This document shows, one piece after another, positions 13,294 through 46,481 of a stretch of 64,000 bases of DNA (the first letter of the stretch is position 1; each line of letters begins with the position of its first letter). Below the pieces are notes generated by a model, which did not search any database, was not told the origin of the DNA, and saw nothing but the letters and a program-made list of their open reading frames with translations. Source of the stretch: Actinophytocola sp. GTDB taxonomy: Bacteria; Actinomycetota; Actinomycetes; Mycobacteriales; Pseudonocardiaceae. The translations under genes were made by a program, and so were the position numbers. The stretch covers positions 16,826 to 80,825 of the forward strand of contig WHUD01000003.1 in NCBI GenBank assembly GCA_009377385.1. The letters run 5' to 3'.

Positions 13294-14910
<1,617 letters not shown>

Positions 14911-15035
14911 GGTCGTCCCTTCGAGTTGGACACTGTGGACACTGTGGACGCTGAAGTTGATGGTTAGGGCCCTGAGCGGGTGGTGCGGGCGACGGGAGGC
15001 CGCCCGCACCACTCACCGCGCGCCGGGGACGCTGA

Positions 15036-16322
<1,287 letters not shown>

Positions 16323-16384
16323 CCGATCTCCAGTGATCTTGTCTTTTTAGCTTGGCGCGAGGTGCGCAGACACGGACCAAGCTC

Positions 16385-16401
16385 GAAGGTTGCAAAGGTT
16401 G
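16385..16401. promoter_or_regulatory. Direct repeat AGGTTGC-AA-AGGTTGC upstream of aceA
   Basis: Located in the aceA/regulator divergent intergenic region. Confidence 0.4.
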
Positions 16402-16461
16402 CTATCCCGTATCTGCTTGCCATGACCATTGCATAAGCTGCAAGAATCGCGCTACCAAGCG

Positions 16462-16473
16462 AATTTGCAAATT
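16462..16473. promoter_or_regulatory. RamB-like operator palindrome AATTTGCAAATT
   Basis: Perfect 12-bp palindrome containing TTTGCAAA, the core described for RamB sites in Corynebacterium. Confidence 0.55.
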
Positions 16474-16589
16474 TCTGTGAACGATCGGTAGCATCCTGCG
16501 AAGGCTGCGAAGACGTCGATCGCGATGACGATCAAACAACGCCGAAACGCAGGCTTAACCTGAAGAAACTCCGGGTAGAGAGGCCCTTC

Positions 16590-18017
16590 ATGGAGAAAAC
16601 CTTCGCCGGGGCGAAGCTCAGGCACCTCCGCGAGAGCCGCCAGATGAGTCAAGCGGATCTCGCGAGAGTGTTGGAGATCTCACCAAGCTATCTGAACCAA
16701 ATCGAACATAACGCTCGGCCGCTCACGGTCCCGGTGCTGTTGCGCATCACGCAGGCGTTCGGAGTCGATGCCGAGTTCTTCGCCAGCAACGACACCGCCC
16801 GGCTGGTCGCCGACGTCCGCGAAGCGCTGCTGGACGAGTCGGTGAACGCTGACATCAGCTTGGGCGAGCTGAACGACCTCGCCACGAATATGCCGAGCCT
16901 CGCGACGGCGCTGGTCAAGCTGCACCGGCGGTACCGGGACGCGGTGGAGAACACCGCCGCGCTGGTCACCGAGGACGGCAGGGGCACCCACGGCAGCACC
17001 GCCGCTCCGCTGCCCCACGAGGAGGTCCGCGACTTCTTCTACGAGCGGGAGAACTACGTCGCCGAGCTGGACGAACGCGCCGAGCGGATGTCGCTCGACA
17101 TGAACCTGCGCCGGGGCGATCTGCGCAACGCGCTGCGGGAGAAGCTCGCCGACGTCTACGGCGTCATCGCCACGACGGAGGGCATCGACGAGTCCACCGG
17201 CGAGCAGCACCGCTACGAGCCGGACGCCAAGGTGCTGCGCATGGCGCCCAGTCTGCGGGTCGGGCAGCAGGCGTTCCGGATGGCATCGCAGATCGCGCTG
17301 CTTGAGTACTCTGAACTGATCAACGAGCTGGCCGACTCCTGGGCGTTCTCCGGGCCAGCCGCGCGCTCGCTGGCCAGGGTCGGGCTGGCGAACTACTTCG
17401 CAGGCGCGCTGATCCTGCCGTACACCGCGTTCCACACCACCGCCGAGCGCTACCGCTACGACATCGAACGGCTCTGTGACCACTTCGGCGTCGGCTTCGA
17501 GACGGTGTGCCACCGGCTGTCGACGTTGCAGCGGCCGAAGCAGCGCGGCGTGCCGTTCTCGTTCGTGCGGGTCGACCGGGCGGGCAACATGTCGAAGCGG
17601 CAGTCGGCAGCCGGGTTCCACTTCTCGCGGGTCGGCGGGTCCTGCCCACTGTGGAACATCTACGAGGCGTTCGCATCGCCTGGCAAGATCCTCACCCAGG
17701 TCGCCGAGATGCCGGACGGCAAGAAGTACTTCTGGGTGGCGCGCACGGTGTCACGCAATATCGGCGGCTACGGCAAGCCGGGCAAGATCTTCTCGGTCGG
17801 CCTCGGCTGCGAGCTGCGGCACGCCCGCAGGCTGGTGTACTCCACCGGGCTCGACCTTGACGACAGCTCGGCGGCCACCCCGATCGGCATGGGTTGCAAA
17901 GTCTGCGAACGGCAGGCCTGCCCGCAGCGGGCGTTCCCCACGATCGGCAAGCACCTCACCGTCGACGAGAACACGTCGACGTTCGTGCCGTATCCGGCGG
18001 TGCCGAAGGAGGAGTGA
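16590..18017 (+). CDS. ramB: XRE-family short-chain fatty acid regulator (RamB/Rv0465c-like)
   Basis: FAGAKLRHLRESRQMSQADLARVLEISPSYLNQIEHNARPLTVPVLLRITQAF; divergent from aceA; 475 aa. Confidence 0.88.
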   Translation: MEKTFAGAKLRHLRESRQMSQADLARVLEISPSYLNQIEHNARPLTVPVLLRITQAFGVDAEFFASNDTARLVADVREALLDESVNADISLGELNDLATNMPSLATALVKLHRRYRDAVENTAALVTEDGRGTHGSTAAPLPHEEVRDFFYERENYVAELDERAERMSLDMNLRRGDLRNALREKLADVYGVIATTEGIDESTGEQHRYEPDAKVLRMAPSLRVGQQAFRMASQIALLEYSELINELADSWAFSGPAARSLARVGLANYFAGALILPYTAFHTTAERYRYDIERLCDHFGVGFETVCHRLSTLQRPKQRGVPFSFVRVDRAGNMSKRQSAAGFHFSRVGGSCPLWNIYEAFASPGKILTQVAEMPDGKKYFWVARTVSRNIGGYGKPGKIFSVGLGCELRHARRLVYSTGLDLDDSSAATPIGMGCKVCERQACPQRAFPTIGKHLTVDENTSTFVPYPAVPKEE

Positions 18018-23242: not shown

Positions 23243-24204
23243 TGACCACATCGGACGTCCTTGCGCTGCTGGTCTTGGCGGGACTGACCGCCTACACGGT
23301 GCTTGGCGGCGCCGACTTCGGAGCAGGCCTGTGGGACCTCACCCGCGACCGGCGGCAGCGTGACCTCGTCGTCCGCGCGATGGGGCCGGTATGGGAGGCC
23401 AACCACGTGTGGCTGATCTTCGTGCTCATCGCGCTGTTCTCCGGGTTCCCCAGCGCGTTCGCGGCGTTGTCCCGGTCGCTGACCGGGCCGCTGTCGATCG
23501 CACTGCTCGGCATCGTGCTGCGCGGTGCGGCGTTCGCGTTCCGGCAGTACGGTGCGCCGCACGGCGGACCGCCGGTGCGCGGGACCGCACTGTGGGGTCG
23601 AGTGTTCGCGGTGTCGTCGTTGGTCACGCCGTTCGCGTTCGGCGCGGCGGCGGGCGGCATCACCAGCGGCACGCTGCGCGCCAACGGCTCGGCGGGGTTC
23701 ATCGCACCGTTCCTGCAGACGTTGCCGCTGGTCGCCGGGCTGCTCGCGGTCGCGGCGTGCGGGTTCATCGCGGCGGTGTATCTCACCACCGACGCCGATC
23801 GCAACGGCGAGCCGGAGTTGGTCGCGAGGCTGCGCGTGCGGGCGTTGGCCAGTGGCGCGGCGGCCGGGGCGTTCGCGTTGCTGGCCCTCCCGCTGCTGCC
23901 CGGCGCGTTCCTCGACCAGTTGCCGTGGCCAGCGGTGGCGGTGAGTGTCGTCAGCGGTGCGCTCGCGCTGGAGTTGATGCGCCGGAAGCGGTTCGTGCTG
24001 GCGCGGGTGGCCGCCGCTGGCGCACCAGCCGGGCTGCTGGCCGGGTGGGCGGTGGCGCTCTACCCGTGGGCGCTGCCCGGCGAGGCGGTGCTCTCCCCCG
24101 CACCCTCGGCCACGACCGGGTTGATCGTCGGAGTGCTGATCGTCGGACTGCTGCTGGTGATCCCGAGCTACGTGTTCATGATCCGGGTGCTACGAGCCCA
24201 CTGA
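23242..24204 (+). CDS. cydB: Cytochrome bd oxidase subunit II
   Basis: VLGGADFGAGLWDLTRDRRQRDLVVRAMGPVWEANHVWLIF; overlaps cydA stop. Confidence 0.93.
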   Translation: MTTSDVLALLVLAGLTAYTVLGGADFGAGLWDLTRDRRQRDLVVRAMGPVWEANHVWLIFVLIALFSGFPSAFAALSRSLTGPLSIALLGIVLRGAAFAFRQYGAPHGGPPVRGTALWGRVFAVSSLVTPFAFGAAAGGITSGTLRANGSAGFIAPFLQTLPLVAGLLAVAACGFIAAVYLTTDADRNGEPELVARLRVRALASGAAAGAFALLALPLLPGAFLDQLPWPAVAVSVVSGALALELMRRKRFVLARVAAAGAPAGLLAGWAVALYPWALPGEAVLSPAPSATTGLIVGVLIVGLLLVIPSYVFMIRVLRAH

Positions 24205-24801
24205 TCGTCAGGATAGGCACCTGGTGTTCGCGAGCGAATGCCACGGAACCCGGCCAGCGCGCCACGTTCGCAACGTCGTCGGTGAGCTCACCGATCACGG
24301 CGACCGGGCCAGCGTTTGCGCGTGTCATCAGCTCGACAGCGGCTTCCGCACGGCAGGGCCGTTCGAGCACGCCGCCGGATGCCACCCGCTCGGGGATGAC
24401 GTGACCTGGCCGGATCAGGTCGCCAGGTACCGATGCCGGGTCTGCCAGGATCCGGAACGCGCGGGCGCGATCCCCAGCGGAGATGCCGGTCGTGATCCCG
24501 GTGGCAGCGTCGACGGCAACGGCGAACCTCGACTGTCCCGGCTCGTCGTGCCTCGCCACCATCGGTGGGATCGCCAGCCGGTCGAGGTCGGCCGCCGTCA
24601 TCGCCGCACGCAGCAGCCCGCTGGTGTGCCGCACCATGGCGGCGACGGTGCGCTTGGTCGCCAGCCGTGCCGCCAGTACCAGCACACCCTCGCAAGCGAT
24701 GTCATCGAACAGCACCACGATGCGTCCGGCGCGGATCTCGGCAACCGCGTGCGCGACCTGAGCAGGCTCCCGGGTGGCGGGTGGCTCAAGGACGGCACTC
24801 A
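24176..24801 (-). CDS. Divergent RibB-like (DHBP synthase fold) protein lacking canonical metal ligands
   Basis: AVAEIRAGRIVVLFDDIACEGVLVLAAR...TGITTGISAGDRARAFRILADP...DLIRPGHVIPERVASGGVLERPCRAEAAVELM. Confidence 0.8.
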
Positions 24802-26283
24802 TGACTTCAGCACAAACGGGTCGGCGGCTGGTTCGTCGCTCGTGTTGATCCACACGCTCTTGAGCCGGGTGTACTCGCGCAGCACTTCGGTGCCGTGCTC
24901 GACCCCGAGACCGCTCTGTTTGAACCCGGATCGCGGCGACATCGGCGACATCGCCCGGTAGGTGTTGACCCACACCGTCCCCGCGTCCAATCGGGACGCC
25001 ATCCGGTGCGCACGCGCGAGGTCGCGAGTCCAGACCCCCGCCGCGAGACCGTAGCTGGTGTCGTTGGCGAGCTTGACGACGTCGTCCTCGGTGTCGAATG
25101 GCATCACGGTAACCACCGGCCCGAAGATCTCCTCCTGGCAGATGCGCATCGAGTTGTCGGTGTCGGTGAAGATCGTCGGAGTGTAGAAGTAGCCAGCCAG
25201 GTCGAGGTCGGGCCGGTGCCCGCCGTGCAGCACCTTGCCGCCTTCCTGCCTGCCGAGCGCCACGTACTCCTCGATCTTGCTGAGCTGGTCGGCGAACGCG
25301 ACCGGACCCAGTTCGGTGGTCGGCTCCAGCGGGTCACCGATGACGATGCTGGCCGCCCGGTCGCGCACCTTCTCCAGCACCTCGTCGTAGACGCCGCGTT
25401 GCAGGAACACCCGGCTGCCCGCGATGCACGTCTGACCCGCCGCCGCGAAAACCCCGGCCACGATGCCCATGGCCGCGCTGCCGGTGTCGGCGTCATCGAA
25501 CACGATGTTGGGTGACTTGCCGCCCAGTTCGAGCGTCACCGGCACCACGCGGGAGCCGCACTGTTCGGCGATGCGGGCGCCGGTCGCTGTGCTGCCGGTG
25601 AAGGTGACCTTGTCGACGCCAGGGTGTTCGGCCAGCGGGGCACCCGTCTCGGAGCCGTAGCCGGTGACCACGTTGACGACGCCCGGCGGGAACCCGGCCT
25701 GTTCGAAGAGCGGCGCCAGTTCCAGCAGCGACGCCGACGTGTGCTCCGACGGCTTGATCACCACGGTGTTGCCTGCCGCGAGGGCAGGCGCGAGCTTGGT
25801 GCTGGTGAGCAACAACGGCGAGTTCCACGGCGTGATCGCGCCGACGACGCCAAGCGGTTCCCGCTGCGTGTAGTTGAGGATCGCGGTGTTGGCCGACGGG
25901 ATCACCGAGCCTTCGATCTTGTCGGCGTACCCGGCGTAGTAGTAGAAGTACTCCGGCAACGCGGCCAGTTGCGCCCGCATCTCCCGCAGCAGTTTGCCGT
26001 TGTCGAGCGTCTCGGTGCGCGCCAACTCCTCGCTGTGCTCGCCGATCAGGTCGCCGAGCTTGCGCAGGAGCTTGCCACGCGCGGTCTGCGACAGGCCGCG
26101 CCACGACGGCGACTCGAACGCCGCGCGCGCCGCGCTGACGGCTCTGTCCACATCGGCCTGCGTGCCCCTGGCCGCCTCGTACCAGGCCTGCCCGGTGGTG
26201 GGGTTGGTCGACGCGAAGTACGCGCCGTCGGCCGGTTCGACCCACTCACCGGCGATGTAGTGCTTGTGGCGCTGCGGCGTCAT
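24799..26283 (-). CDS. Aldehyde dehydrogenase (TgnC-like by context)
   Basis: VTLELGGKSPNIVFDDADTG; AGQTCIAGSRVFLQ; EEIFGPVVTVMPF. Confidence 0.95.
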   Translation of the reverse strand: MTPQRHKHYIAGEWVEPADGAYFASTNPTTGQAWYEAARGTQADVDRAVSAARAAFESPSWRGLSQTARGKLLRKLGDLIGEHSEELARTETLDNGKLLREMRAQLAALPEYFYYYAGYADKIEGSVIPSANTAILNYTQREPLGVVGAITPWNSPLLLTSTKLAPALAAGNTVVIKPSEHTSASLLELAPLFEQAGFPPGVVNVVTGYGSETGAPLAEHPGVDKVTFTGSTATGARIAEQCGSRVVPVTLELGGKSPNIVFDDADTGSAAMGIVAGVFAAAGQTCIAGSRVFLQRGVYDEVLEKVRDRAASIVIGDPLEPTTELGPVAFADQLSKIEEYVALGRQEGGKVLHGGHRPDLDLAGYFYTPTIFTDTDNSMRICQEEIFGPVVTVMPFDTEDDVVKLANDTSYGLAAGVWTRDLARAHRMASRLDAGTVWVNTYRAMSPMSPRSGFKQSGLGVEHGTEVLREYTRLKSVWINTSDEPAADPFVLKS

Positions 26284-27007
26284 GATCCACCTCCGTGGTG
26301 TGGCTGAGGATGTGCTGGACAAGCGTGTCGGGGGCCTGCATCGGCAGCAGGTGACGGACGCCGGGCACGATCACCGCCCGCGCGCCGGGGATGACGTCCG
26401 CCAACCGATGCGTCATCTCCTGAGTCGAGCCGGGATCGTCCGCTCCGGTGATCGCGAGCGTTGGTGCGGCGATCTCCGGCAGTCGCGGCCACAGCACCTG
26501 ATCGGCGGTCGCGAAGACGCGGTAGCACCGCAGGTAGGAGCGATGGTCAGTGCCAAGCAGCGTGGCACGCAGTTCCACTGCCAGGTCCGGGTCGGTGGCT
26601 TGCCAAGCTGGAGGCATCCACCGGTCCACGGCCGCGTCCGCCGCAGCGGCGAAGTCTCGCTCGGCGAGGGCCAGCCGCTCGGCGACGGCGGCCGACTCGG
26701 CCGGTGACCGGTCGACCACCGCACTGACCAGCACCAGCGAACGCACCAGCGCCGGGTGTTCGAGCGCTAGCTGTTGCGCCACCATCGTGCCGAGCGAGAA
26801 GCCCACCACGTGCGCGGGTCCGTCCATGCGGCTGGCGACGTCGTCGGCGAGGTCCGCCACCGTCGCCCCCTCCGGCGCCGGACCCGCGTGCCCGTGGCCG
26901 AGCAGGTCCAGCGCGCGGACCCGGTGCCGGGTGCCGAGCGGATCGAGGCAGCGCCGCCACATCCGGCGGTTCAGCCCGATGCCGTGCAGCAGCAGGAGAC
27001 CGCTCAT
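26246..27007 (-). CDS. Alpha/beta hydrolase (TgnD-like by context)
   Basis: MSGLLLLHGIGLNRRMWRRCLDPL...VVGFSLGTMVAQQLALEHP. Confidence 0.92.
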   Translation of the reverse strand: MSGLLLLHGIGLNRRMWRRCLDPLGTRHRVRALDLLGHGHAGPAPEGATVADLADDVASRMDGPAHVVGFSLGTMVAQQLALEHPALVRSLVLVSAVVDRSPAESAAVAERLALAERDFAAAADAAVDRWMPPAWQATDPDLAVELRATLLGTDHRSYLRCYRVFATADQVLWPRLPEIAAPTLAITGADDPGSTQEMTHRLADVIPGARAVIVPGVRHLLPMQAPDTLVQHILSHTTEVDHDAAAPQALHRR

Positions 27008-27555
27008 TGCTCAGTCGACAACGAAGCGAGCCGGGCGTGTGGACGGCCCTGCGCGGCGGCGGCGAGACCGACGATGATCTCGTCCGGCCGGGGCGCGTCC
27101 GGCACCCGAACCTCGACGGTCTGGTGGTGGGAGCGGATGGTGGCGTCGGTGACGTGCTTGAGCGGGATGTCGAACACGGTGCCTGCCGGGGCGCGCTTCT
27201 CCACCGCGGGCAGCAGCGTGGTGGCGTTGGCGACCTTGCGGAAGTGGTCGCCGAACTTCAGGGTGTGGATGAGCGCGGAGCCGTGCTCGATCTCCCCGTC
27301 GAGCCCAACGATCGCGGCCTTACCGTACGCCTCGATCGGCGCGTCGAGCGCCTCGGCGACCTTGGGTGCGAGCAGTTCGCCGAGCCGGGGCGCGATCTCG
27401 TCGATCAGTGGCCCGAGGTCGGTCACGAATCCCTGCCCTGCCCACGGGTTCTCCACCACGGCGAGCACGACGGCAGTGCGGGCGACCGGATCGACCGGCT
27501 GCTCGCCCTCGCGGTGGACGTCGTCGACGACAGTGGTGATCTTGCGTAGCTTCAC
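27004..27555 (-). CDS. Amino acid synthesis (PF06684/DUF1185) family protein, copy 1
   Basis: ENPWAGQGFVTDLGPLIDEIAPRLGE...AYGKAAIVGLDGEIEHGSALIHTLKFGDHFRK. Confidence 0.85.
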   Translation of the reverse strand: MKLRKITTVVDDVHREGEQPVDPVARTAVVLAVVENPWAGQGFVTDLGPLIDEIAPRLGELLAPKVAEALDAPIEAYGKAAIVGLDGEIEHGSALIHTLKFGDHFRKVANATTLLPAVEKRAPAGTVFDIPLKHVTDATIRSHHQTVEVRVPDAPRPDEIIVGLAAAAQGRPHARLASLSTEQ

Positions 27556-28145
27556 GATGCGTTCTCCAATTCGGCCAGGGTGACGCGCGGATCGGTGGTG
27601 CGGTCGCCGATGCGGGCGTTGGGACGGGGCCCCGACGACGCGGCGGCGATGACGACGATCTCGTCGTCGGCCGGGGCGTCGGGGATGCGGATCTGCATGG
27701 TCTGGTAGTGCGAGCGGGTCGCCGCCTCGGTCTTGTGCCAGAGCGGCACGGTGAGCGCGGTGCCAGCCGGGCCGCGCTCGTCGGAGAACACGATGATCGA
27801 CGTGCCTCCGGTCAGCTCGCGCAGCACGTTGCCGAAGTACGGCGTGTGGATCAGCGCCGCGCCGTGCTCGATCTCCCCACCGAGCCCGACCAGCGCCGCC
27901 TTGCCGAACGCCGTGACGTTGTCCGGCCCGCCGAGCGCGCTGGTCAGCCGGTCGCTCAGCCGCGTCGCCAGCGTCGGCGCGACCTTTGCGGCCGCCGGAC
28001 CCAGGTCCGCGACGACGCCCTGCCCCGCCCACGGGTTGGCGATCGCGGCGGCCGCCGCGACCCGGCGAGCCTGATGGGAGACCGGCGTGCCGAGCTCGGT
28101 CACGACCTCCTCGGTGACCGTCACGACCCTGCGTACCAGCGTCAC
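27552..28145 (-). CDS. Amino acid synthesis (PF06684/DUF1185) family protein, copy 2
   Basis: IANPWAGQGVVADLGPAAAKVAPTL...AFGKAALVGLGGEIEHGAALIHTPYFGNVLRE. Confidence 0.85.
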   Translation of the reverse strand: MTLVRRVVTVTEEVVTELGTPVSHQARRVAAAAAIANPWAGQGVVADLGPAAAKVAPTLATRLSDRLTSALGGPDNVTAFGKAALVGLGGEIEHGAALIHTPYFGNVLRELTGGTSIIVFSDERGPAGTALTVPLWHKTEAATRSHYQTMQIRIPDAPADDEIVVIAAASSGPRPNARIGDRTTDPRVTLAELENAS

Positions 28146-29284
28146 GGCTGTGTCCTATCGTCGTCGGCGAACCTAGGCATGACCTTCTCGGTGAACAGCT
28201 CAAGGCTGCGCATCGCGTGCCGGTGCTCCAGCCCGGGGTGCGTGGTCCACAGCAGCAGGTGCTCCAGGTTCAGCTCGCTCCGCAGCTCCTCGATCTTCTC
28301 CGCGACGTACTCCGGCGTGCCGACCAGCAGGTTGCGGTCGGCGAGGAAGTCGAAGGACAGCTCGTGCTCGTCGGTGAGCTCCTCCCCCGCCTCCATCATG
28401 TTGCCGAGACCGCGGAAGTGCGTGACCCACCGGTACGAGGTCATCAGCGCGTCCTCGAACTCGGCCCGCGCCTGCTCCATGGTGTCGGCTACGTAGACGT
28501 CGCGGACCAGCCCGATGCCCTCACCGAGCGCGTACTCCCGGCCGGATGCGGCACTGGCGGTGTCGCGGTACAGCGCGAACCGGTCCTTGAGCGCCGACAC
28601 CGGCGGCAACCAGAACAAGCCCTGCACGCCCTGCTCGGCCGCGCTCTTGATGGACCGAGGGCTGTCGATCACCTGCCACAACGGCGGATGCGGCCGCTGG
28701 TACGGCCTCGGCGTGACCGCCATCTTGGTGATCACACCGTCCGCAGTGAACTCCGGCGTCGCAGGGGACAGCGGGTGGTTCCAGCGCACGCCGGGCTCGG
28801 GGAAGGTGTAGAACTGGCCGGAGTGGGAGAAGAACTCCTCGCTCCACGCCTTCCGCATGATCTCGACGGTCTCCTCGTAAAGCGCCCGGTTCTGCTCCTG
28901 ATCGCGCGGGTCGGCGAAGCGGTTGAGGTTGAGCGCCTCCCGCCCGTACAGCCCTCGGCCGAGACCAACCTCGACCCGGCCACCGGAGAGCTGATCGAGC
29001 ATGGCGATGTCCTCGGCCAGCCGCAGCGGATGCCAGAACGTGGCGATGCTGGCGGCCTGTCCGATGCGGATTCGCGAGGTGTGGGCGGCGATGTCGGCGC
29101 CCATCAGCACCGGGTTGGGCGTGATCTCGATGCCCTCGTGTCCAAAGTGGTGCTCGGTGTACCAGATCGACCAGTACCCGGCGTCGTCTGCCGCCTTGGC
29201 GAACTCGCGCGCCTCGGCCATCACCTGGTGATAGTCGTCCAGCCGCCCTGGCGCGCCCAGGTTGTGGAAGATGGAAAAACGCAT
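28142..29284 (-). CDS. LLM class flavin-dependent oxidoreductase
   Basis: AKAADDAGYWSIWYTEHHF...LDQLSGGRVEVGLGRGLY. Confidence 0.93.
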   Translation of the reverse strand: MRFSIFHNLGAPGRLDDYHQVMAEAREFAKAADDAGYWSIWYTEHHFGHEGIEITPNPVLMGADIAAHTSRIRIGQAASIATFWHPLRLAEDIAMLDQLSGGRVEVGLGRGLYGREALNLNRFADPRDQEQNRALYEETVEIMRKAWSEEFFSHSGQFYTFPEPGVRWNHPLSPATPEFTADGVITKMAVTPRPYQRPHPPLWQVIDSPRSIKSAAEQGVQGLFWLPPVSALKDRFALYRDTASAASGREYALGEGIGLVRDVYVADTMEQARAEFEDALMTSYRWVTHFRGLGNMMEAGEELTDEHELSFDFLADRNLLVGTPEYVAEKIEELRSELNLEHLLLWTTHPGLEHRHAMRSLELFTEKVMPRFADDDRTQP

Positions 29285-29305
29285 GTGTCGACTCCCCGCG
29301 TGTTC

Positions 29306-29995
29306 TCAGCTGTCTGCGTCAGAGCGGTTGCTCATGGCCTCCCGCTGGGAGGACTGGACGTGGTCGCGCATCGCGAACTCGGCGCCGAAGGCGTCCTTGC
29401 CGAGAATCCGGTCGAGCACGTTGCGGTGCTCGGCGAGCGAGACGTCCAACCGCCCCGGATGTCGCAGCGTGTTCACGACGATGCGGTGGTAGGCCAGTTT
29501 GTGCATCAAATTGTCATACTGTGCCGCAAGCATGTGGTTGTCCGCGCCCTGGATGATCAGGCCGTGGAAGTCGTGCACCAGCTGGGCGTAGCGCTCGGCG
29601 TCGCCTGCGGCGACGGCCCGCTCCGAGTCCGCCAGGTTGGCCTGGAGTAGCTCGGTCTCGGCGACGAGCCCACGCTGCGCGAGCAACTGAGCGCCGAGCC
29701 CCTCAAGGACCGCCTTGAGCTGGAAAAGCTCAGTCAGCTCACGCCGCGACGGCTGCCGCACGAAGGTGCCCACCCTTGGCCTGACCTCGACGAGCCCTTC
29801 GGACTGCAACTGCTGGATTGCCTCCCGGATCGGCGTGCGGCTGGTGCCGTACGCATCCGCGAGCGCACCTTCCGACAGCGAACTGCCCGGCTGATACTCG
29901 CCGCGGATGATCGCGTCCCTGAGCTGATCCAGCACGCGCGCCTTGGCGCCACGGCCAGCTTGCATACCAGCAGTCACCTTTACGACATCTTGCAT
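29306..29995 (-). CDS. GntR-family regulator, FCD domain
   Basis: LDQLRDAIIRGEYQPGSSLSEGALADAYGTSRTPIREAIQQLQSEGLVEVRPRVGTFV. Confidence 0.93.
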   Translation of the reverse strand: MQDVVKVTAGMQAGRGAKARVLDQLRDAIIRGEYQPGSSLSEGALADAYGTSRTPIREAIQQLQSEGLVEVRPRVGTFVRQPSRRELTELFQLKAVLEGLGAQLLAQRGLVAETELLQANLADSERAVAAGDAERYAQLVHDFHGLIIQGADNHMLAAQYDNLMHKLAYHRIVVNTLRHPGRLDVSLAEHRNVLDRILGKDAFGAEFAMRDHVQSSQREAMSNRSDADS

Positions 29996-30142
29996 GCCAG
30001 CGACGTTAGCCGGACGCCAGGCACATCGTCAAGGGCACCCGAGGCCATACCGCCTTGTCAAACCCCATTTAACTGGGCGGGAGCAGCGGAGCCATGACGT
30101 GACCGTTGACACGTCCCATGTCCGCTCGTATCGTCATCTGCC

Positions 30143-30715
30143 ATGCAAGAGCGGGCCAACGGCGGGTCGTCGGAGGACGTCGAGCGGGCGACCACGCTCA
30201 TCGGCGACAACCTCCAGCTGCTCACCGGTCACGAGCCACACCGGCAGCGCCTGGTGCGCGGGCATCGCCACATCCACCGGCTCGCGCTGGCCTGGCCGAG
30301 CGCCGACCACCCTCGGGTGTGCCTGCAGGTCCTGCGCGACACCGAGCCGGGCACCGGCCAGCAAGGCTGGCTGCCAGCCGACGCCATGGCGGTGGCGGAG
30401 TCGCTCGACGTCAAGCTCAAGCACACCGAGACAGGCGCGGCCAGCTTCGAGGAATGGCGCCGGGAGGCAGACCCGGCCTACTACGTCGTGGTGATCGACG
30501 GGAGCCCGGCCGCGCGGCGCGACGCCGAGCTGACCCGGCGGTGCGCGCTGCTGGAGTCCGGCTACGTCGACGGCGCCGGCTGGCTGCGCTTCTACGCAGA
30601 CGGCATGTTCGCGGAGGGCTCGTTCACGCGCGTGATCGAGCGCGCCGCGTTCGAGATCCGCACGCGGCTGGGCACGCACGCGGACCGCGCGGAATACCGC
30701 AGCGGGCTGTGCTGA
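30143..30715 (+). CDS. Hypothetical protein
   Basis: 190 aa ORF in a gene-sized gap; good coding composition; no family recognised. Confidence 0.65.
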   Translation: MQERANGGSSEDVERATTLIGDNLQLLTGHEPHRQRLVRGHRHIHRLALAWPSADHPRVCLQVLRDTEPGTGQQGWLPADAMAVAESLDVKLKHTETGAASFEEWRREADPAYYVVVIDGSPAARRDAELTRRCALLESGYVDGAGWLRFYADGMFAEGSFTRVIERAAFEIRTRLGTHADRAEYRSGLC

Positions 30716-30750
30716 CCGCCAACGCAACAGACGACACCGAGGAGGTGCCC

Positions 30751-31194
30751 ATGGCAACAGAATCGGCCCGCAAGCAGCGGGTACGGGAGGTATGGCAGGC
30801 GAGTTGGGGACGCGGCGACGTCGACGCGCTCGACGAACTGCTAGATCCTAGCTACCGCCGCCACACCGCGTCCGGCGGCACGCCGCAGAGCCGCGACGGG
30901 TTCAAGGCGTCGATCCTCTCGACCAGAGAGGCGTTCCCCAACCTGATGACCACCATCGAGGAGATGGTCGAGGAAGGCGATCGCCTCGCCATCCGCTGGC
31001 GCAGCACCGGAACCCACACGGGCACCTTCCACGATGTGCCGCCGACCGGCCGCGACGTCGAGGTCTTCGGCGTCACCTTCGCCCACTTCACCGGATCGGC
31101 CGTGGCCGAGGAATGGGTTACGTGGGATCCGCTGCAACTGCTGACCGCGCTGGGCATCATCCCGCTCTCCGCGGCGACACGGCGCTCCACCTGA
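30751..31194 (+). CDS. SnoaL-like / ester cyclase family protein
   Basis: VREVWQASWGRGDVDALDELLDPSYRRHTASGG...DRLAIRWRSTGTHTGTFHDVPPTGR. Confidence 0.88.
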   Translation: MATESARKQRVREVWQASWGRGDVDALDELLDPSYRRHTASGGTPQSRDGFKASILSTREAFPNLMTTIEEMVEEGDRLAIRWRSTGTHTGTFHDVPPTGRDVEVFGVTFAHFTGSAVAEEWVTWDPLQLLTALGIIPLSAATRRST

Positions 31195-31210
31195 CGCAAG
31201 GAGGTAGTCC

Positions 31211-31717
31211 ATGGCAACCACACCGACCACTGTGGATCCCGAAACCGTCAAGGACGTGCACCGCCAGTTCGTTACCGGCGTCACCGTCGTCACAACGGTC
31301 GACGGCGACACGCCACGCGGACTCGCCGTCAACGCGTTCAGCAGCGTGTCGCTGGAGCCGCCAGTGGTGCTGGTGTGCGTGCAGGCGACGTCAACCAGCT
31401 ACCCGGCGCTGTTCCGGTCGAGTCACCTCGCGGTGAACATCCTCGCCGCCGACCAGCTTCCGGTGCTGCGCGTCTTCGCCGCGAAGGGACACGACAAGTT
31501 CGCCGACATCGACTGGTCACCTGGCGTGCACGGCTCGCCCATCATCGACGGCTGCGCCGCGTCCATCGAAGTCGAGATCGGCGAACGACTGCGGGCGGGC
31601 ACCCACACCGTCTTCATCGGACAGGTCGTGGACGCCCGCACCCGCGACACCGAACCGCTCATCTACCGCGCTGGCGAGTTCTACACACCCTCCGGCCTCA
31701 CCACCATCACCGAGTGA
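31211..31717 (+). CDS. Flavin reductase family protein
   Basis: HRQFVTGVTVVTTVDGDTPRGLAVNAFSSVSLEPPVVLVCV. Confidence 0.93.
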   Translation: MATTPTTVDPETVKDVHRQFVTGVTVVTTVDGDTPRGLAVNAFSSVSLEPPVVLVCVQATSTSYPALFRSSHLAVNILAADQLPVLRVFAAKGHDKFADIDWSPGVHGSPIIDGCAASIEVEIGERLRAGTHTVFIGQVVDARTRDTEPLIYRAGEFYTPSGLTTITE

Positions 31718-31739
31718 CCCAGCAGGAAAGGGAGAAACC

Positions 31740-33347
31740 ATGCGTTCAGCACTAGGCGACCGGCTTGGCGGCCGGTCCGGCCCCGTCTTCGGCATATCCA
31801 TCGCGGTCTCCGCGTTGTTCCTTGCCTGGGGGATCTTCTTCACCAGCAGCCTCGCCACGACCATGTCGGCCGCACTCGACTGGGTGACCCGGAGCTTCGG
31901 GTGGATGTACCTTGCGTCGACCGTCGCGCTGCTCGGCTTCCTCGTCGTCCTCGCGTGCAGCCGCTACGGCAAGATCCGGCTCGGCAAAGACCACGAGCGG
32001 CCGGAGTTCTCCACCTTCAGCTGGCTCGCCATGATGCTCGCGGCGATCATGGGCATCGGGCTGATCGCGTACGGCGTCGCCGAACCGATCTCCCATTTCG
32101 CCACCCCGCCACACGGCCTCGCCCAGCCGGAATCGGCACGGGCCATGGTGGTGGCGCTGCAGTACTCCTTCTTCCATTGGGGACTGCACGCATGGGGCGT
32201 CTTCGCAGTCTTCGGCCTCGCCATCGGTTACTCGATGTACCGGAAGGGCAGGAAGGGGCTCGTCAGCTCGCTGTTTTATCCATTGCTCGGCGACCGTGTC
32301 CACGGCCCGATCGGCAAGGCCATCGACGTGCTGGCCATCTTCGCCACGCTGTTCGGCACGACGACGTCGCTCGGCCTTGGCGCGCTGCAGATCAACGGCG
32401 GGCTGAACACGCTGTTCGGCGTGCCGACCGGGGAGGTCGTCCAGATCGCGATCATCGCGGTCATCACGCTGCTCTTCACCGCGTCCGCCGTGACCGGGCT
32501 CCACCGGGGCATCAAGTACCTCAGCACGATCACCGCCGGAATCGCCACTCCCCTGCTCGTATTCGTTCTCATCGCGGGACCCACCGTGTTCCTGGCGAAC
32601 CTCTTCTTCGAGTCCGCGGGCGCGTACCTGACCGACTTCGTCCGGATGAGCCTGCGCGGCGCGACATTCGGCGACCTCGCCTGGATGCAAAGCTGGACCT
32701 ACTTCATGCTCGCCTGGTGGGTCGCGTGGGCCGCCTTCGTCGGCGTCTTCCTCGCCCGCATCTCACGGGGACGCACCATCCGCGAGTTCATCGTCGGCGT
32801 CCTTGTCGGACCGAGCGCCGCGTTCTTCGCCTGGTTCACCGTGTTCGGCGGGGCCGCGATGCACCGTGACTTCTACCAAGGCGGCAACATCGCCCAGGTC
32901 ACCGCCAACAACATCAATGACGCCTTCTTCGCCACCCTCGACGCCTTTCCATGGCCGGTACTCACCTCCGCCGGCGCGCTCATCCTCGCGGTGCTGTTCT
33001 TCGTGACCAGCGCTGACTCCAACACGTTCGTGCTGAGCATGCTCTCCTCGGAAGGCACTCAGCAGCCGAAACGACGTGTGCTGGTGACCTGGGGCAGCAT
33101 CACCGGACTGACGGCGATCGTGCTGCTGCTCACCGGTGGGCTCGACGCCCTGCAGCAAACCGTCATCGTCACGTCGGCTCCCTTCATCGTGATCATCTTC
33201 GGACTGGCGATTGCGTTCTGGAAGGACCTCAAGGGCGACCCAGTCGTGCATGCCCAAGCCATAGGCAATGACCAGCCGGAGCCCGCCGTGGCCGAGGAAC
33301 CAGACACCGCGGTTTACGCGTCCTCGGAGCGCTCGCAGGCACCGTGA
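31740..33347 (+). CDS. BCCT-family betaine/carnitine/choline transporter (1)
   Basis: FSWLAMMLAAIMGIGLIAYGVAEPISHF...YSFFHWGLHAWGVF; 535 aa. Confidence 0.93.
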   Translation: MRSALGDRLGGRSGPVFGISIAVSALFLAWGIFFTSSLATTMSAALDWVTRSFGWMYLASTVALLGFLVVLACSRYGKIRLGKDHERPEFSTFSWLAMMLAAIMGIGLIAYGVAEPISHFATPPHGLAQPESARAMVVALQYSFFHWGLHAWGVFAVFGLAIGYSMYRKGRKGLVSSLFYPLLGDRVHGPIGKAIDVLAIFATLFGTTTSLGLGALQINGGLNTLFGVPTGEVVQIAIIAVITLLFTASAVTGLHRGIKYLSTITAGIATPLLVFVLIAGPTVFLANLFFESAGAYLTDFVRMSLRGATFGDLAWMQSWTYFMLAWWVAWAAFVGVFLARISRGRTIREFIVGVLVGPSAAFFAWFTVFGGAAMHRDFYQGGNIAQVTANNINDAFFATLDAFPWPVLTSAGALILAVLFFVTSADSNTFVLSMLSSEGTQQPKRRVLVTWGSITGLTAIVLLLTGGLDALQQTVIVTSAPFIVIIFGLAIAFWKDLKGDPVVHAQAIGNDQPEPAVAEEPDTAVYASSERSQAP

Positions 33348-34278: not shown

Positions 34279-35178
34279 ATGGCGGAGAAGCTCGGCGCCC
34301 ATCCGCGCGACGAGGTCGCGAAGCGGCTGCTCGACGGCTCGGTGAAACGGTCATACGACCCGGTCGTCGACATGGACTGGGACGCGCCGCTTGACCCGGA
34401 CAAGTTGTTCCTGCCTGCCGAGGTGATCTCGCTGTACGGCACGCCGATGTGGCAGCAGATGTCGCACGAACAGCGCCGCGAGCTGTCCCGCCAGGAACTC
34501 GCGAACGTCCTCAGCGTCGGCATCTGGTTCGAGAACGTCCTCAACCGGATGCTGCTGCGCGAGCTCCTCAGTGAGGACCCGACCAGCAAGCACGCCCACT
34601 ACACGCTCACCGAGATGGGCGACGAGTGCAGGCACATGGTGATGTTCGGCAGGGTGATCGACCGGGTCGGCGCCCGGCCGTACTGGCCGAAGGGCCTCGC
34701 CGCCGTCTTCGTCAAGGTGCTGCCGTTCTTCCTGCGCAAGTCGATGGTCTGGACGGGTGCGCTGCTCGGCGAGGAGATCTTCGACGCGCTGCAACGGCGG
34801 ATCATGTCGGACCCGGACCTGCAGCCGCTGGTCGCGCGGCTGATGCGGATCCACGTCACCGAGGAGGCCCGCCACATCCGGTTCGCCCGCGAGGCTCTCG
34901 CTCGCGACGCCCGCACGCTGCCCTGGTGGGAACGCCGCTACACCCAGACACTCGCGGCGATCGCCGCACCGCTGTTCGCCGGCATGTTCACGAACAGTCA
35001 CATGTACGTCCGCGCCGGGCTGGACGGTCGCGAGGCCAAGCGCCAGGCGTTGGCCAACCCACGGTTCCGCCAGGCGCGTGAGACCGGATCGGCCCGGCTC
35101 GCCACGTTCCTCGACGACATCGGCCTGATGGGGTCACTGACCAGGGCGTCGTGGCGACGGTGGGGGTTCCTGGCGTGA
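34279..35178 (+). CDS. AurF-like diiron oxygenase
   Basis: EMGDECRHMVMFGRVIDRVG...HVTEEARHIRFAREAL (ExxxH diiron motifs). Confidence 0.85.
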   Translation: MAEKLGAHPRDEVAKRLLDGSVKRSYDPVVDMDWDAPLDPDKLFLPAEVISLYGTPMWQQMSHEQRRELSRQELANVLSVGIWFENVLNRMLLRELLSEDPTSKHAHYTLTEMGDECRHMVMFGRVIDRVGARPYWPKGLAAVFVKVLPFFLRKSMVWTGALLGEEIFDALQRRIMSDPDLQPLVARLMRIHVTEEARHIRFAREALARDARTLPWWERRYTQTLAAIAAPLFAGMFTNSHMYVRAGLDGREAKRQALANPRFRQARETGSARLATFLDDIGLMGSLTRASWRRWGFLA

Positions 35179-39501: not shown

Positions 39502-39519
39502 CATCTTGAAGTTAAGATG
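39502..39519. promoter_or_regulatory. Inverted repeat CATCTT-GAAGTT-AAGATG in divergent promoter
   Basis: Perfect 6-bp arms, 6-bp spacer. Confidence 0.45.
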
Positions 39520-39621
39520 TGGAATGGTGTACCACTATGTAACCGACTTGGCTACCCCTACCACCGGATTTCCTCGCCTCGGTGCCCGATTCCGGCGGCG
39601 ACGACCGAACCTGGAGGCCCC

Positions 39622-42495
39622 ATGCCCGGAATCGCATCGACGCTGGCCCGCGAGCTGACCGACGTCGTGCGCGGCGACGTCCGGTTCGACGCGGGAACCC
39701 GCGCGATGTACTCGACCGACGCCTCGAACTACCGGGCGGTGCCGATCGGCGTCGTAGTCCCGCGCTCGACCGAGGACGTGCTCGCCGCGCTCGACGTGTG
39801 CCGCCGCCACGACGTGCCGGTGCTGCCGCGCGGCGCCGCCACCAGCATCGCCGGGCAGACCTGCAACGTCGCCGTGGTGATCGACTTCGCCCGCCACCTT
39901 GACCGGGTGCTGGACATCGATCCCGACCGATCACTCGCCCGGCTACAGCCCGGCGTCGTGCTCGACACGCTGCAGTCCGCCGCTGGGCCGTACGGGCTGG
40001 CGTTCGGGCCGGACCCGTCCACCCACAGCCGTTGCACCCTCGGCGGCATGATCGGCAACAACGCCTGCGGATCGCACTCGGTGGCCTGGGGCAAGACCGT
40101 CGACAACGTCGAGTCGCTCGACGTCGTGCTCTACGACGGCACCCGACTTACCGTCGGCGCCACTCCGGACGACGACCTCGCGCGACTGTGCGCCCGCGAG
40201 GACCGGATCGGCACCCTGCACCGCGACCTCCGCGCGCTGCGTGACACGAACGCCGAGCGGATCCGGCAGTCGTTCCCCCGGCTGGATCGCCGTGTCTCCG
40301 GCTACAACCTGGACCAGCTGCTGCCGGAGCACGGCTTCGACCTCGCGCGTGCGCTGGTCGGCACAGAAGGCAGCTGCGCAACGATCCTCGGCGCAACAGT
40401 CCGGTTGGTCCGCCCGCCGACGGCACGCGCGCTGGCGGTGCTCGGCTTCGCCGACCGGTTCGCCGCCGCCGACAACGTCGTCGGCGTACTCGACCTCAAC
40501 CCGCTCACCGTTGAGGGCATCGACGCCGCCCTCGTCGCCGCGTTCCGCGCCAAGAACCCGCGCAGCCGCGCCGCCGAGCTGCTGCCTGCTGGGGAGAGCT
40601 GGCTGCTTGTCGAGACCGGCGGCGAGACCCCGGCGGAGGCGGCCGCCCGCGCCCGCGAGGTCACCCGGTACGGCGCCACCGGCGTAGTGCTGACCGCGCC
40701 GGAACAGCGGCGGGCGCTGTGGCGGGTCAGGGAGGAGGGCGCTGGCACCGCGACCCGGCTCGCCGACGGCACCGAGGCGTGGTCCGGCTGGGAGGACGCC
40801 GCCGTGCCGCCGCACCGTCTCGGCGCGTACCTGCGCGAGTTCGACCGGCTCATGCGCGAGCACGACCGGCGCGGGGTGGTGTACGGCCATTTCGGCGACG
40901 GCTGCCTGCATGTGCGCATCGACTTCGACCTGCACAGCGACGCCGGGGTCGCCGGGTACCGGCGGTTCATGACGGACGCAGCCGAGCTGGTCGTCAGCCA
41001 CGGCGGGTCGCTGTCCGGCGAGCACGGCGACGGCCAGGCCCGCGCCGAGCTGCTACCCAGGATGTTCCCACCGGAGATCATCGAGGCGTTCGGCCAGTTC
41101 AAGGCCGCCTTCGACCCGCGAGACAGGATGAACCCCGGCAAGATCGTGCGTCCCCGCAGGCTGGACGACGACCTGCGCGTGCACATCGCCCCGCCCACCA
41201 TCCCGACGCGGGCGCGGCTCGCGCTCGACGCCGACGACGGCGACCTCGCCGCGGCGAGCAGGCGTTGCGCGGGCGTCGGCACATGCCTCAACGCCACCGG
41301 TGGGGTGATGTGCCCGAGCTACCGTGCCACTCGCGAGGAGCGGCACTCCACCCGGGGACGCGCGCGGCTGCTGTTCGAGCTGCTGCACGGCGACGTCGTC
41401 ACCGATGGCTGGCGCTCGGCCGAGGTGCGCGAGGCACTCGACCTGTGTCTGTCCTGCAAGGGCTGCAAGAGCGACTGCCCGGTCAACGTCGACATGGCCA
41501 GCTACAAGGCGGAGTTCCTCAGCCGCCACTACCACCGGCGGATCCGGCCTGCCAGCCACTACTCGATGGGCTACCTGCCGCTCTGGCTCGCGCTCGGCGC
41601 GCGGACGCCATGGCTGGTCAACCGGATCACCGGCGGACAAGCGGGCGGGTTGCTCAAGCGGCTCGGCGGCATCGCACCGGAGCGCGCGATCCCCGCGCTG
41701 GCGCCCCGCACCTTCCAGGCGGCGCACCACGCGTCCCGTCCCGAGTCGCCGCAGCCCGACGTCATGCTGTGGCCTGACACCTTCACCAACCACTTCGACC
41801 CGGACATCGGCCACGACGCCGTCGGGGTACTCGAGTCGCTCGGCCTTTCCGTCGCGGTGCCGCGACAGCGGGTCTGTTGTGGACTGACGTGGCTGTCGAC
41901 AGGGCAGCTCGGCACGGCGCGCCGGGTGCTGCGACGCACGCTCCGGGTTCTCGCACCCGCACTCGACCGGAAGGTGCCGATCGTCGGGCTGGAACCGAGC
42001 TGCACCGCGTTCCTCCGCTATGACGCCGCAGAGTTACTGCCAGAGGCGCGGCGGCTCGCGGACGGCGTGCGCACCTTCGCCGAGGTGCTCGATGAGCACC
42101 GAAGCGACTGGACGGTGCGCAACCCCGGCCAGCGCGCCATGGTGCAGGTGCACTGCCACCAGCATGCCGAGCTCGGCTTCGACGCCGACCGCCGCGTACT
42201 CGACGATCTCGACGTGACGGCGGACGTACTCGACAGCGGCTGCTGCGGCCTCGCGGGCAACTTCGGCTTCGAACGTGGCCACTACGACGTGTCGATGGCC
42301 TGCGCAGAACAGGCGTTGCTGCCCGCGATCCGGGCGGACACCGATGCCACGGTGCTCGCGGACGGGTTCAGCTGCCGCACCCAGGTAAGCCAGGCCACCG
42401 ACACGCAGCCGGTGCACCTCGCGACGCTGGCCGCACGCGCACTGGGCGTGTCAGCCGAGGATCAGCGCTGGCTCAGCGACCGCCGCACGGTGTGA
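39622..42495 (+). CDS. FAD-binding/(Fe-S)-binding oxidase (GlcD-GlcF fusion; D-2-hydroxyglutarate/D-lactate dehydrogenase type)
   Basis: ~957 aa; PRGAATSIAGQTCN...LGGMIGNNACGSHSVAWGKT; CLSCKGCKSDCPVNVDMA and CCGLAGNFGFE Fe-S motifs. Confidence 0.92.
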   Translation: MPGIASTLARELTDVVRGDVRFDAGTRAMYSTDASNYRAVPIGVVVPRSTEDVLAALDVCRRHDVPVLPRGAATSIAGQTCNVAVVIDFARHLDRVLDIDPDRSLARLQPGVVLDTLQSAAGPYGLAFGPDPSTHSRCTLGGMIGNNACGSHSVAWGKTVDNVESLDVVLYDGTRLTVGATPDDDLARLCAREDRIGTLHRDLRALRDTNAERIRQSFPRLDRRVSGYNLDQLLPEHGFDLARALVGTEGSCATILGATVRLVRPPTARALAVLGFADRFAAADNVVGVLDLNPLTVEGIDAALVAAFRAKNPRSRAAELLPAGESWLLVETGGETPAEAAARAREVTRYGATGVVLTAPEQRRALWRVREEGAGTATRLADGTEAWSGWEDAAVPPHRLGAYLREFDRLMREHDRRGVVYGHFGDGCLHVRIDFDLHSDAGVAGYRRFMTDAAELVVSHGGSLSGEHGDGQARAELLPRMFPPEIIEAFGQFKAAFDPRDRMNPGKIVRPRRLDDDLRVHIAPPTIPTRARLALDADDGDLAAASRRCAGVGTCLNATGGVMCPSYRATREERHSTRGRARLLFELLHGDVVTDGWRSAEVREALDLCLSCKGCKSDCPVNVDMASYKAEFLSRHYHRRIRPASHYSMGYLPLWLALGARTPWLVNRITGGQAGGLLKRLGGIAPERAIPALAPRTFQAAHHASRPESPQPDVMLWPDTFTNHFDPDIGHDAVGVLESLGLSVAVPRQRVCCGLTWLSTGQLGTARRVLRRTLRVLAPALDRKVPIVGLEPSCTAFLRYDAAELLPEARRLADGVRTFAEVLDEHRSDWTVRNPGQRAMVQVHCHQHAELGFDADRRVLDDLDVTADVLDSGCCGLAGNFGFERGHYDVSMACAEQALLPAIRADTDATVLADGFSCRTQVSQATDTQPVHLATLAARALGVSAEDQRWLSDRRTV

Positions 42496-43807: not shown

Positions 43808-45394
43808 TCAGCCGATCGGTGCCTCGTCGCGTGTCTCCGCGGTCACCGCAACGGACACGGGCTTGGCAGCGGGGTAGTCGTCGAGCAACCATCTCCGGAA
43901 TGACAGCACCACGATGACCAGCACGAAGATCAACGGGAACGCGGTGATGATGGCGAGCGTCTGCAGCGCTTCGAGACCGCCCGCGTACATCAGCGCGATG
44001 GACACACCGGCAAGCGCGACCGCCCACACGACCCGGTGCCAGCGCGCCGGTTCGACCTCGGCGGGCAGCTCCCGCGACGCGACGGCCGCCATGGTGTACG
44101 CCGAAGAGTCCAATGTGGTCGCGAGGAAGATGACGAGCAGCAGAATGAACACCGCGAGCACCACCCAACCGAGCGGGAGCGCTTGCAGTGTGGCCACAAT
44201 GGCGGCGGTTGGCCCCTCGTTCTCCAGGATGCCCGCGACCGGCACGGTACCGTTGAGCTGGAACGACAGCCCGGTGTTGCTCATCAGCGCGAACGCGATC
44301 CAGTTGCCGAAGCTGCCCGCGACCAGCATCGCAACGATGACTCCACGCATGGTGCGTCCGCGGGAGATCTTCGCGGTGAACAGCCCAAGGAACGGCGCGT
44401 AGGCGATCCACCATGCCCAGTAGAAGACCGTCCAGCTCTCCTCGAAACCGGAACCGCCGATCGGGTCCATGTAGAAGCTCATCTGCACGAAGTTCTGCAT
44501 CATCGTGCCGACGCTGTTAGTGAAGGTGTCGACGATGAACACCGTCGGTCCAGCGATGAGCAGGAACACCGCGAGCGCGCCCGCGAGCCACAGGTTCAGC
44601 TGCGCGAGCCGCCGCAGGCCGCGCTGCAGGCCAAGGTAGACGCTGACGCCGAACAGCAACGTCCAGGCGACCAGGATGCCGATGTCAAGGCCGGTGCCGG
44701 GGCTCAGCGGGCTGAGCGCGGCGACGCCTTCGGAAACGATCGGCACCTCTAGGCCGAGGGAGGTTCCCGCCGCGCCGACGACACCGAAGATGAACAGCAC
44801 GTCGATGGTCCGGCCGAGCCAGCCGTCGGCACGGTCACCGATGATGCCCCTGCAGGCGTCGGACAGCCGCAGGGTGGGGCGCTTCCGCACGTGGTAGGCG
44901 TACGCGAGCGGCAACGCCGGTAGGCAGTACAGGGCCCAGCCGATGAAGCCCCAGTGATACATCGGGTAGGTCGCTGCCCACTCGGCGGCCGCGGTGCTGC
45001 GCGGTTCTACCCCGAACGGTGGATCGGTGTAGTAGTAGGCCCACTCGATCATGCCCCAGTACATGATCCCGCCACCGATACCAGCGGTGAAGATCATCGC
45101 GATCCAGGTGACGGTGGAGAATTGCGGCGTGTCGCCGCGCTGCCCGAACAGCACCTTGCCGAATCGGCTTGCGGCGAGCCAGACAAGCAGACCGAAGACG
45201 AGGACACCGAACCACAAGTACAGCCAGCCGAACTTGCCGGTAAGAAACGACAACACCGTGCTCATCGCCTTGGTGCCCGCCTCGGGTGCCACCATCAGCG
45301 GCACTCCGATGGCGGCCACGATGGCGAGTGCCGGCCAGAAGATCTTCTTGTCGAGCTGCGCTTTCTGCCTCGTATCGGCAGCTGTCGGTTGCAT
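43808..45394 (-). CDS. BCCT-family betaine/carnitine transporter (2)
   Basis: MIFTAGIGGGIMYWGMIEWAYYYTDPPFGVEPRS...YPMYHWGFIGWALYCLPALPLAYAYHVR. Confidence 0.94.
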   Translation of the reverse strand: MQPTAADTRQKAQLDKKIFWPALAIVAAIGVPLMVAPEAGTKAMSTVLSFLTGKFGWLYLWFGVLVFGLLVWLAASRFGKVLFGQRGDTPQFSTVTWIAMIFTAGIGGGIMYWGMIEWAYYYTDPPFGVEPRSTAAAEWAATYPMYHWGFIGWALYCLPALPLAYAYHVRKRPTLRLSDACRGIIGDRADGWLGRTIDVLFIFGVVGAAGTSLGLEVPIVSEGVAALSPLSPGTGLDIGILVAWTLLFGVSVYLGLQRGLRRLAQLNLWLAGALAVFLLIAGPTVFIVDTFTNSVGTMMQNFVQMSFYMDPIGGSGFEESWTVFYWAWWIAYAPFLGLFTAKISRGRTMRGVIVAMLVAGSFGNWIAFALMSNTGLSFQLNGTVPVAGILENEGPTAAIVATLQALPLGWVVLAVFILLLVIFLATTLDSSAYTMAAVASRELPAEVEPARWHRVVWAVALAGVSIALMYAGGLEALQTLAIITAFPLIFVLVIVVLSFRRWLLDDYPAAKPVSVAVTAETRDEAPIG

Positions 45395-45436
45395 CGCTGT
45401 CTCCCGTGTCCTGCGTGATTCGCCACGTTGCGATCT

Positions 45437-45454
45437 GACTAATTAATCAGTAGG
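45437..45454. promoter_or_regulatory. Predicted operator TGACTAATtaATCAGTAG (carnitine regulator)
   Basis: Shares TGACTAAT-NN-ATCAGT with the site upstream of the SDR gene at ~53.2 kb. Confidence 0.5.
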
Positions 45455-45588
45455 TACGCCGGAGTAGCGTGCGTCACTCAACAGTGCGATGTCAACCCCC
45501 TGTTTTCCAGGAGATAACGGCTGGAGCCGAAACATCGGCCGGAAGCTCCATATTGCGATTATCTCAACAACTGGTTAGGGTGGGCGCT

Positions 45589-46458: not shown

Positions 46459-46481
46459 ACCCACGATATAAGGGGAACCTC

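Follow-up and report, generated by a model that had tools for sequence, protein, structure and literature searches.

A putative trigonelline-type catabolic operon in Actinophytocola with a presumed ring-opening oxygenase distinct from the TgnB type

Trigonelline (N-methylnicotinate) and homarine (N-methylpicolinate) are abundant plant and marine betaines. In a record of Acinetobacter baumannii (NZ_CP104448.1, locus L116; filed as a plasmid, with a size of 4.09 Mb that suggests a chromosome), used here as a stand-in for A. baylyi and its trigonelline (tgn) genes, one cluster encodes a GntR regulator, a PF06684 protein, a hydrolase, a flavin reductase, a luciferase-like monooxygenase (LLM), an aldehyde dehydrogenase (ALDH), a permease (36% identical to an NCS1 permease of the Bacillota), an outer-membrane protein taken as a porin, a succinate-semialdehyde dehydrogenase, and a PcaC-like protein. 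Sinorhizobium meliloti without the plasmid pSymA does not grow on trigonelline (PMC4207669), and pSymA (loci L094 and L117) carries the PF06684, hydrolase, reductase, LLM, and ALDH genes in one row with a GntR gene upstream, the LLM and ALDH being 72% and 71% identical to those of Acinetobacter. Here, we compare these systems with a gene cluster of Actinophytocola sp. (draft genome, 5.1 Mb in 688 contigs) that lies within a 64,000-nucleotide stretch of contig WHUD01000003.1, the whole of which is referred to as the window, and that the initial annotation had interpreted as a candidate trigonelline-like degradation cluster with additional components. Based on homology and gene neighbourhood, from which all functional steps are inferred, we consider it rather likely that the cluster is an operon serving the breakdown of an N-methylpyridinium carboxylate, with trigonelline as the best candidate, along the lines of the Acinetobacter Tgn pathway but by means of a non-orthologous ring-opening oxygenase.

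The window cluster shares with Acinetobacter the GntR regulator, PF06684 protein, hydrolase, flavin reductase, LLM, and ALDH, and its ALDH and PF06684 proteins fall into the same clades as their Acinetobacter counterparts. In contrast, its LLM belongs to a different clade, its reductase is shorter and accompanied by a separate SnoaL-like protein, PF06684 is present in two copies, a BCCT transporter is found instead of the NCS1 permease, a porin gene is missing, and genes for a succinate-semialdehyde dehydrogenase or a PcaC-like protein are not adjacent. The pSymA cluster, which has the same core set, likewise differs from the window in its LLM (27% identity), its ABC transporter, and its single PF06684 gene. 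On plasmid pDCT5 of Arthrobacter dokdonellae (L089), counterparts are found of both PF06684 proteins (55% and 69% identity), the ALDH (68%), reductase (56%), GntR regulator (55%), hydrolase (46%), and SnoaL domain, whereas the LLM is of the presumed TgnB type and the cluster includes an NCS1-type permease, a tautomerase, a riboflavin kinase, and a succinate-semialdehyde dehydrogenase. Because the ALDH and PF06684 proteins are shared and phylogenetically linked, in addition to the hydrolase, reductase, and GntR regulator, there is good support for predicting a pyridinium-betaine ring-opening pathway akin to trigonelline degradation. The trigonelline-like assignment is partly supported, and the earlier suggestion of a pathway variant fits, with the variation residing in the oxygenase and the transporter; the different substrate that it envisaged is possible only.

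The LLM gene (28142–29284, minus strand; PF00296, 183 bits) encodes the presumed ring-opening oxygenase. In the full LLM tree, the clade of the window protein (“type I”) and the presumed TgnB type, which is anchored on the A. baumannii protein as a stand-in for A. baylyi TgnB, each form a single clade, with support values of 95/99 and 100/100, respectively. With this separate placement and an identity of only 26%–31%, the window LLM is by sequence clearly no orthologue of the presumed TgnB type, so that its proposed equivalence to TgnB does not extend to orthology. An LLM of the presumed TgnB type was also not found elsewhere in the window genome, which contains about 20 LLM genes. We dropped the further claim that the two clades are not sister groups, as a topology grouping all module LLMs together was not rejected (p-value of the approximately unbiased test (p-AU) 0.129).

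The downstream enzymes give a different picture. The window ALDH (24799–26283, minus strand; 494 aa; PF00171, 588 bits), the presumed TgnC equivalent, has the catalytic cysteine and glutamate motifs and is placed in one clade (100% support) with its cluster counterparts from Acinetobacter, S. meliloti, and Arthrobacter. This single clade contains the ALDHs of clusters with either LLM type, sorted mainly by host phylum: those of A. dokdonellae and of a further genome (G503, L140), both with a presumed TgnB-type LLM, are placed among the actinobacterial ALDHs of window-type clusters, whereas those of SAR11 and of loci L066, L125, and L126, all with a window-type LLM, are placed among the proteobacterial ones. 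A topology forced to keep the ALDHs from window-type clusters as one group is rejected (p-AU 3e-76), and a minimum of six changes is required. This topology test and the final LLM tree were full searches with bootstraps, whereas the quick LLM, PF06684, and ALDH trees carry only support values of the Shimodaira–Hasegawa-like approximate likelihood ratio test. The same module with another LLM is also found in plasmid records, including S. meliloti pSymA, A. baumannii, A. dokdonellae, Leisingera, Agrobacterium pAt, and others. Since the ALDHs cannot be divided into a separate clade for each LLM type, the LLM has probably been exchanged several times over conserved downstream enzymes, which is the simplest reading of the mismatch between the two trees, although in a mirror image of this scenario the downstream genes may have been transferred instead.

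The initial annotation had regarded the PF06684 proteins as extra components without a role in the Acinetobacter scheme. Instead, they appear to be a core component, as they are present in the Acinetobacter and S. meliloti clusters and form a clade of their own. The window genes (PF06684 protein 1, 27552–28145, 200 bits; PF06684 protein 2, 27004–27555, 203 bits; both on the minus strand) encode members of two actinobacterial subclades that also occur in Arthrobacter and genome G503. In the quick tree, the LLM-linked PF06684 proteins are gathered in a clade (99% support) that comprises 56 rows and is separate from the other 62; it consists of 50 rows labelled as linked, two lying beside an LLM by annotation (L118 and L119), and four without a detected LLM (L134, L243, L247, and L250). 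PF06684 was rejected as a general marker of the module, as only one clade is linked and only 7 of 57 sampled loci have a detectable LLM nearby; tandem PF06684 pairs without a nearby LLM (L201, L203, L217–L220, and L225–L228) represent a different context of the family. The structurally characterized members BB2672 and SPO0826 (PMC2954203) share with the module proteins the GK, EH, and several arginine residues common to the whole family. Module members, including those beside the window oxygenase, differ in having NPW and IHT motifs, at sites where NPF or NPY and other residues prevail outside the module: the tryptophan of NPW occurs in 100% vs. 0%, the threonine of IHT in 100% vs. 8%, and an alanine at window position 56 in 97% vs. 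0% of module and non-module proteins, respectively. As the tree itself helped to define the module group for these counts, the signature is a description of the clade and not an independent test of it. The PF06684 pair may act on an intermediate formed after ring cleavage.

The module has a broad but patchy distribution. A scan with the window LLM as query yielded 324 related loci, and among the best 80 of these, which were kept, the nearest LLM (94% identity) is from an Actinophytocola metagenome-assembled genome (MAG). The window-type LLM together with the same downstream genes is found in Streptomyces, Bacillota, SAR11, and other Alphaproteobacteria, and the gene order LLM–PF06684–hydrolase–ALDH recurs in Streptomyces, Amycolatopsis, Saccharopolyspora, Pseudonocardia, many Bacillota (including Staphylococcus xylosus), and SAR11; in a Rhodospirillales MAG the set is present without PF06684 beside it. 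In an even draw of Actinomycetota genomes, only 3 of 298, including the window genome, encode a close LLM, indicating a patchy distribution of this type. LLMs, ALDHs, and hydrolases all come from large families, and with about 20 LLM genes in the genome the oxygenase could belong to an unrelated degradation or osmolyte pathway with coincidental neighbours. We consider this highly improbable: the same gene order in Streptomyces, other Pseudonocardiaceae, Bacillota, and SAR11, and thus in three phyla, indicates that the grouping is not due to chance, and the PF06684 and ALDH trees tie the cluster to the presumed trigonelline modules. Among the SAR11 loci read (within L067–L088), the genes bordering the module are arylmalonate-decarboxylase-like and M24 peptidase-like, along with those of an ABC transporter (L076), and in L069 a thiamine pyrophosphate enzyme is encoded between the LLM and PF06684. 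In another alphaproteobacterial locus (L125:11774–18226), the module adjoins genes for a Rieske oxygenase, a DAO-type oxidase, and a GMC oxidoreductase, classes that are frequent in betaine catabolism.

All window genes named in the initial annotation were recovered at their positions by Pfam and NCBIfam profile matches, with Pfam scores far above the curated cut-offs. On the minus strand, the order is GntR, LLM, PF06684, PF06684, hydrolase, ALDH, and RibB-like. The gap between the GntR and LLM genes is 21 bp, and the subsequent genes overlap by 4, 4, 4, 38, and 4 bp when the second PF06684 gene is read from a GTG codon, which overlaps the upstream stop; likewise, the ATG of the RibB-like gene overlaps the ALDH stop by 4 bp. 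These genes therefore probably form one operon. The GntR/FCD protein (29306–29995, minus strand; PF00392 and PF07729), the presumed pathway regulator, is the counterpart of the Arthrobacter protein mentioned above. The hydrolase (26246–27007, minus strand; 253 aa; PF12697/PF00561), presumably TgnD-type, has a Ser-Asp-His triad and an RW motif that are conserved across the module hydrolases despite identities of only 23%–46% to the window protein. A divergent set on the plus strand comprises orfX and the genes for the SnoaL-like protein, flavin reductase, and BCCT transporter. OrfX (30143–30715; 190 aa), absent from the earlier gene list, matched no family in Pfam or NCBIfam profile searches, and its structure model was unusable (predicted local distance difference test score of 36). 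Homologues are located at the same place in Actinophytocola (L009, 82% identity) and Saccharopolyspora (L029, 44%).

Several of these genes probably serve the flavin side of the reaction. The flavin reductase (31211–31717, plus strand; PF01613, 142 bits), presumably a TgnA-like component, shares 35%–37% identity with its counterparts in Acinetobacter and S. meliloti. In the comparison with the Tgn proteins that had been proposed earlier, made here with A. baumannii, the reductase and ALDH show the expected relationship, whereas the LLM does not. In Bacillota, an FMN_red-type reductase follows the ALDH gene, and locus L038 encodes both FMN_red and riboflavin kinase domains. Because a flavin reductase is encoded in the window and a riboflavin kinase also in relatives, the gene content fits an LLM that depends on flavin mononucleotide (FMN) rather than F420. 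The SnoaL-like protein (30751–31194, plus strand, within the frame 30106–31194; PF07366) is fused to the reductase in A. dokdonellae, forming one 312-aa protein. The RibB-like protein (24176–24802, minus strand; 208 aa; PF00926, 181 bits) belongs to the 3,4-dihydroxy-2-butanone 4-phosphate (DHBP) synthase family, and its relatives are fused to riboflavin kinase in Bacillota (L038:14602–15594 in a domain scan, others by alignment). The window protein is unlikely to be a working DHBP synthase, as it and its module homologues have lost the RENEGD loop and the GHTE histidine, which are metal-ligand motifs that the canonical RibB in L092 retains. Thus, the SnoaL-like and RibB-like proteins, previously considered to have no role in the Tgn scheme, now look like flavin-side accessories because of the gene fusions in relatives; the former is probably paired with the reductase, and a flavin-related role is also probable for the latter. 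The Bacillota RibB-like domains without canonical metal-binding motifs, together with riboflavin kinase, possibly represent an unrecognised flavin-supply protein.

The BCCT transporter (31740–33347, plus strand; PF02028, 606 bits) is the presumed substrate importer. In an alignment to BetP (2wit, offset 29), it retains the tryptophans at W189, W194, and W374, while Y197 is replaced by phenylalanine; we take these BetP residues to be the betaine cage. An early alignment hint that this tryptophan cage was lost, as a sign of an unusual substrate, was dropped once BetP numbering had been applied. The residues fit a quaternary ammonium substrate without identifying it. This bears on pyridine, or another uncharged pyridine, as an alternative substrate. 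In pyridine-degrading Arthrobacter, the route to succinate semialdehyde likewise runs through an LLM-type oxygenase with a flavin reductase, an aldehyde dehydrogenase, and a hydrolase. The same enzyme classes are thus involved, relatives of the window cluster encode succinate-semialdehyde dehydrogenase, and several clusters have NCS1 permeases. However, the BCCT transporters of the window and of many Bacillota clusters, the conserved tryptophans, and a proline/betaine ABC transporter adjoining the module in Agrobacterium (L119) point to a quaternary ammonium compound, and an occurrence in groups as different as SAR11, Streptomyces, and Staphylococcus hints at a metabolite that is common in nature, so that we regard an uncharged pyridine as improbable. 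A second BCCT transporter is encoded in a carnitine-type cluster elsewhere in the window (43808–48340; 477 bits to the BCCT subfamily and 456 bits to a carnitine antiporter model), together with a TetR regulator with a BetI-type C-terminal domain, a beta-keto acid cleavage enzyme, and a protein that resembles L-carnitine dehydrogenase but stays, at 381 bits, below the cut-off of 414.

In the pathway proposed here, the betaine would be imported by the BCCT transporter, and reduced FMN would be provided to the LLM by the flavin reductase, assisted by the SnoaL-like protein. The LLM would then cut the ring next to the nitrogen, yielding an N-formyl enamide carrying an aldehyde, which would be oxidised by the ALDH. 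With the PF06684 pair working on an intermediate formed after cleavage, the hydrolase would release formate and methylamine, leaving succinate semialdehyde, while the RibB-like protein may help in flavin supply or sensing and both divergent arms may be under GntR control. By this chemistry, trigonelline, N-methylpyridinium, and pyridine would lead to succinate semialdehyde, whereas homarine would lead to 2-oxoglutarate or N-methylglutamate. Succinate-semialdehyde dehydrogenase genes scoring above the curated cut-off are present in two window-type Bacillota loci (directly downstream in L060; nearby on the other strand in L037), as they are in the Acinetobacter cluster; a PcaC-like protein 65% identical to that of Acinetobacter is encoded beside several window-type Bacillota modules; and the ABC binding protein at a window-type Brevibacillus locus (L064) shares 59% identity with its S. 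meliloti cluster counterpart. Owing to these associations, trigonelline is favoured and homarine, with the window-type LLM acting as a homarine oxygenase, is the main rival, which we regard as unlikely but still the more credible of the substrate alternatives. It is in line with an oxygenase unlike the presumed TgnB type and with the presence of the window type in SAR11, and TgnAB has been argued to be unlikely to act on homarine (PMC8269262). Furthermore, a conserved homarine pathway was published in 2026 (Nat Microbiol, doi 10.1038/s41564-026-02313-7, as cited in PMC13390433), possibly with the same enzyme classes acting on a regioisomer, and Mgd is reported to take part in homarine catabolism (PMC13390433). 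Should its oxygenase prove to be a window-type LLM, the substrate would be homarine and the novelty of the present cluster lower. Conversely, neither the succinate-semialdehyde dehydrogenase nor the PcaC-like protein of the Bacillota modules would be needed by the chemistry predicted for homarine, and the surroundings of the modules examined held no recognisable N-methylglutamate gene, although mgd was not searched for systematically.

Some observations weigh against trigonelline catabolism by Tgn logic. Besides the low identity of the window LLM to the presumed TgnB type, the hydrolase is only 24%–31% identical to those of Acinetobacter and S. meliloti, and the transporters differ between clusters (BCCT, NCS1, and ABC). 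A succinate-semialdehyde dehydrogenase gene is missing from the window cluster, and the best match in the genome, located elsewhere, is 44% identical. Growth or biochemical data were not found for any window-type LLM. The equation of the A. baumannii cluster with tgn is likewise our assumption, based on gene content and the A. baylyi pathway.

Other loci in the window include an AurF-like N-oxygenase gene (34279–35178; 332 bits) adjoining a TetR gene, a gene for a 992-aa FAD-oxidase/Fe-S protein related to the D-2-hydroxyglutarate dehydrogenase YdiJ (39517–42495), and genes for malate synthase, isocitrate lyase, and an ScfR-type regulator in a row (13294–18017).

Beyond the window, a more far-reaching interpretation is tentative. 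The window-type LLMs may represent a second, undescribed family of pyridinium-ring-opening LLMs that repeatedly replaced, or was replaced by, TgnB on a conserved downstream module, so that trigonelline or a closely related compound could be used by Streptomyces, Bacillota (including Staphylococcus xylosus), and SAR11, with a subfamily of PF06684, a family named for amino acid synthesis but without an assigned reaction, as a core enzyme. The residue signature of this pathway-specific subfamily makes its role testable. If SAR11 and many soil Gram-positives indeed use the module, surveys for TgnB-type oxygenases alone would miss much of the degradation of these betaines, and a ring-opening oxygenase repeatedly exchanged over fixed downstream enzymes would be a clear case of modular pathway evolution.

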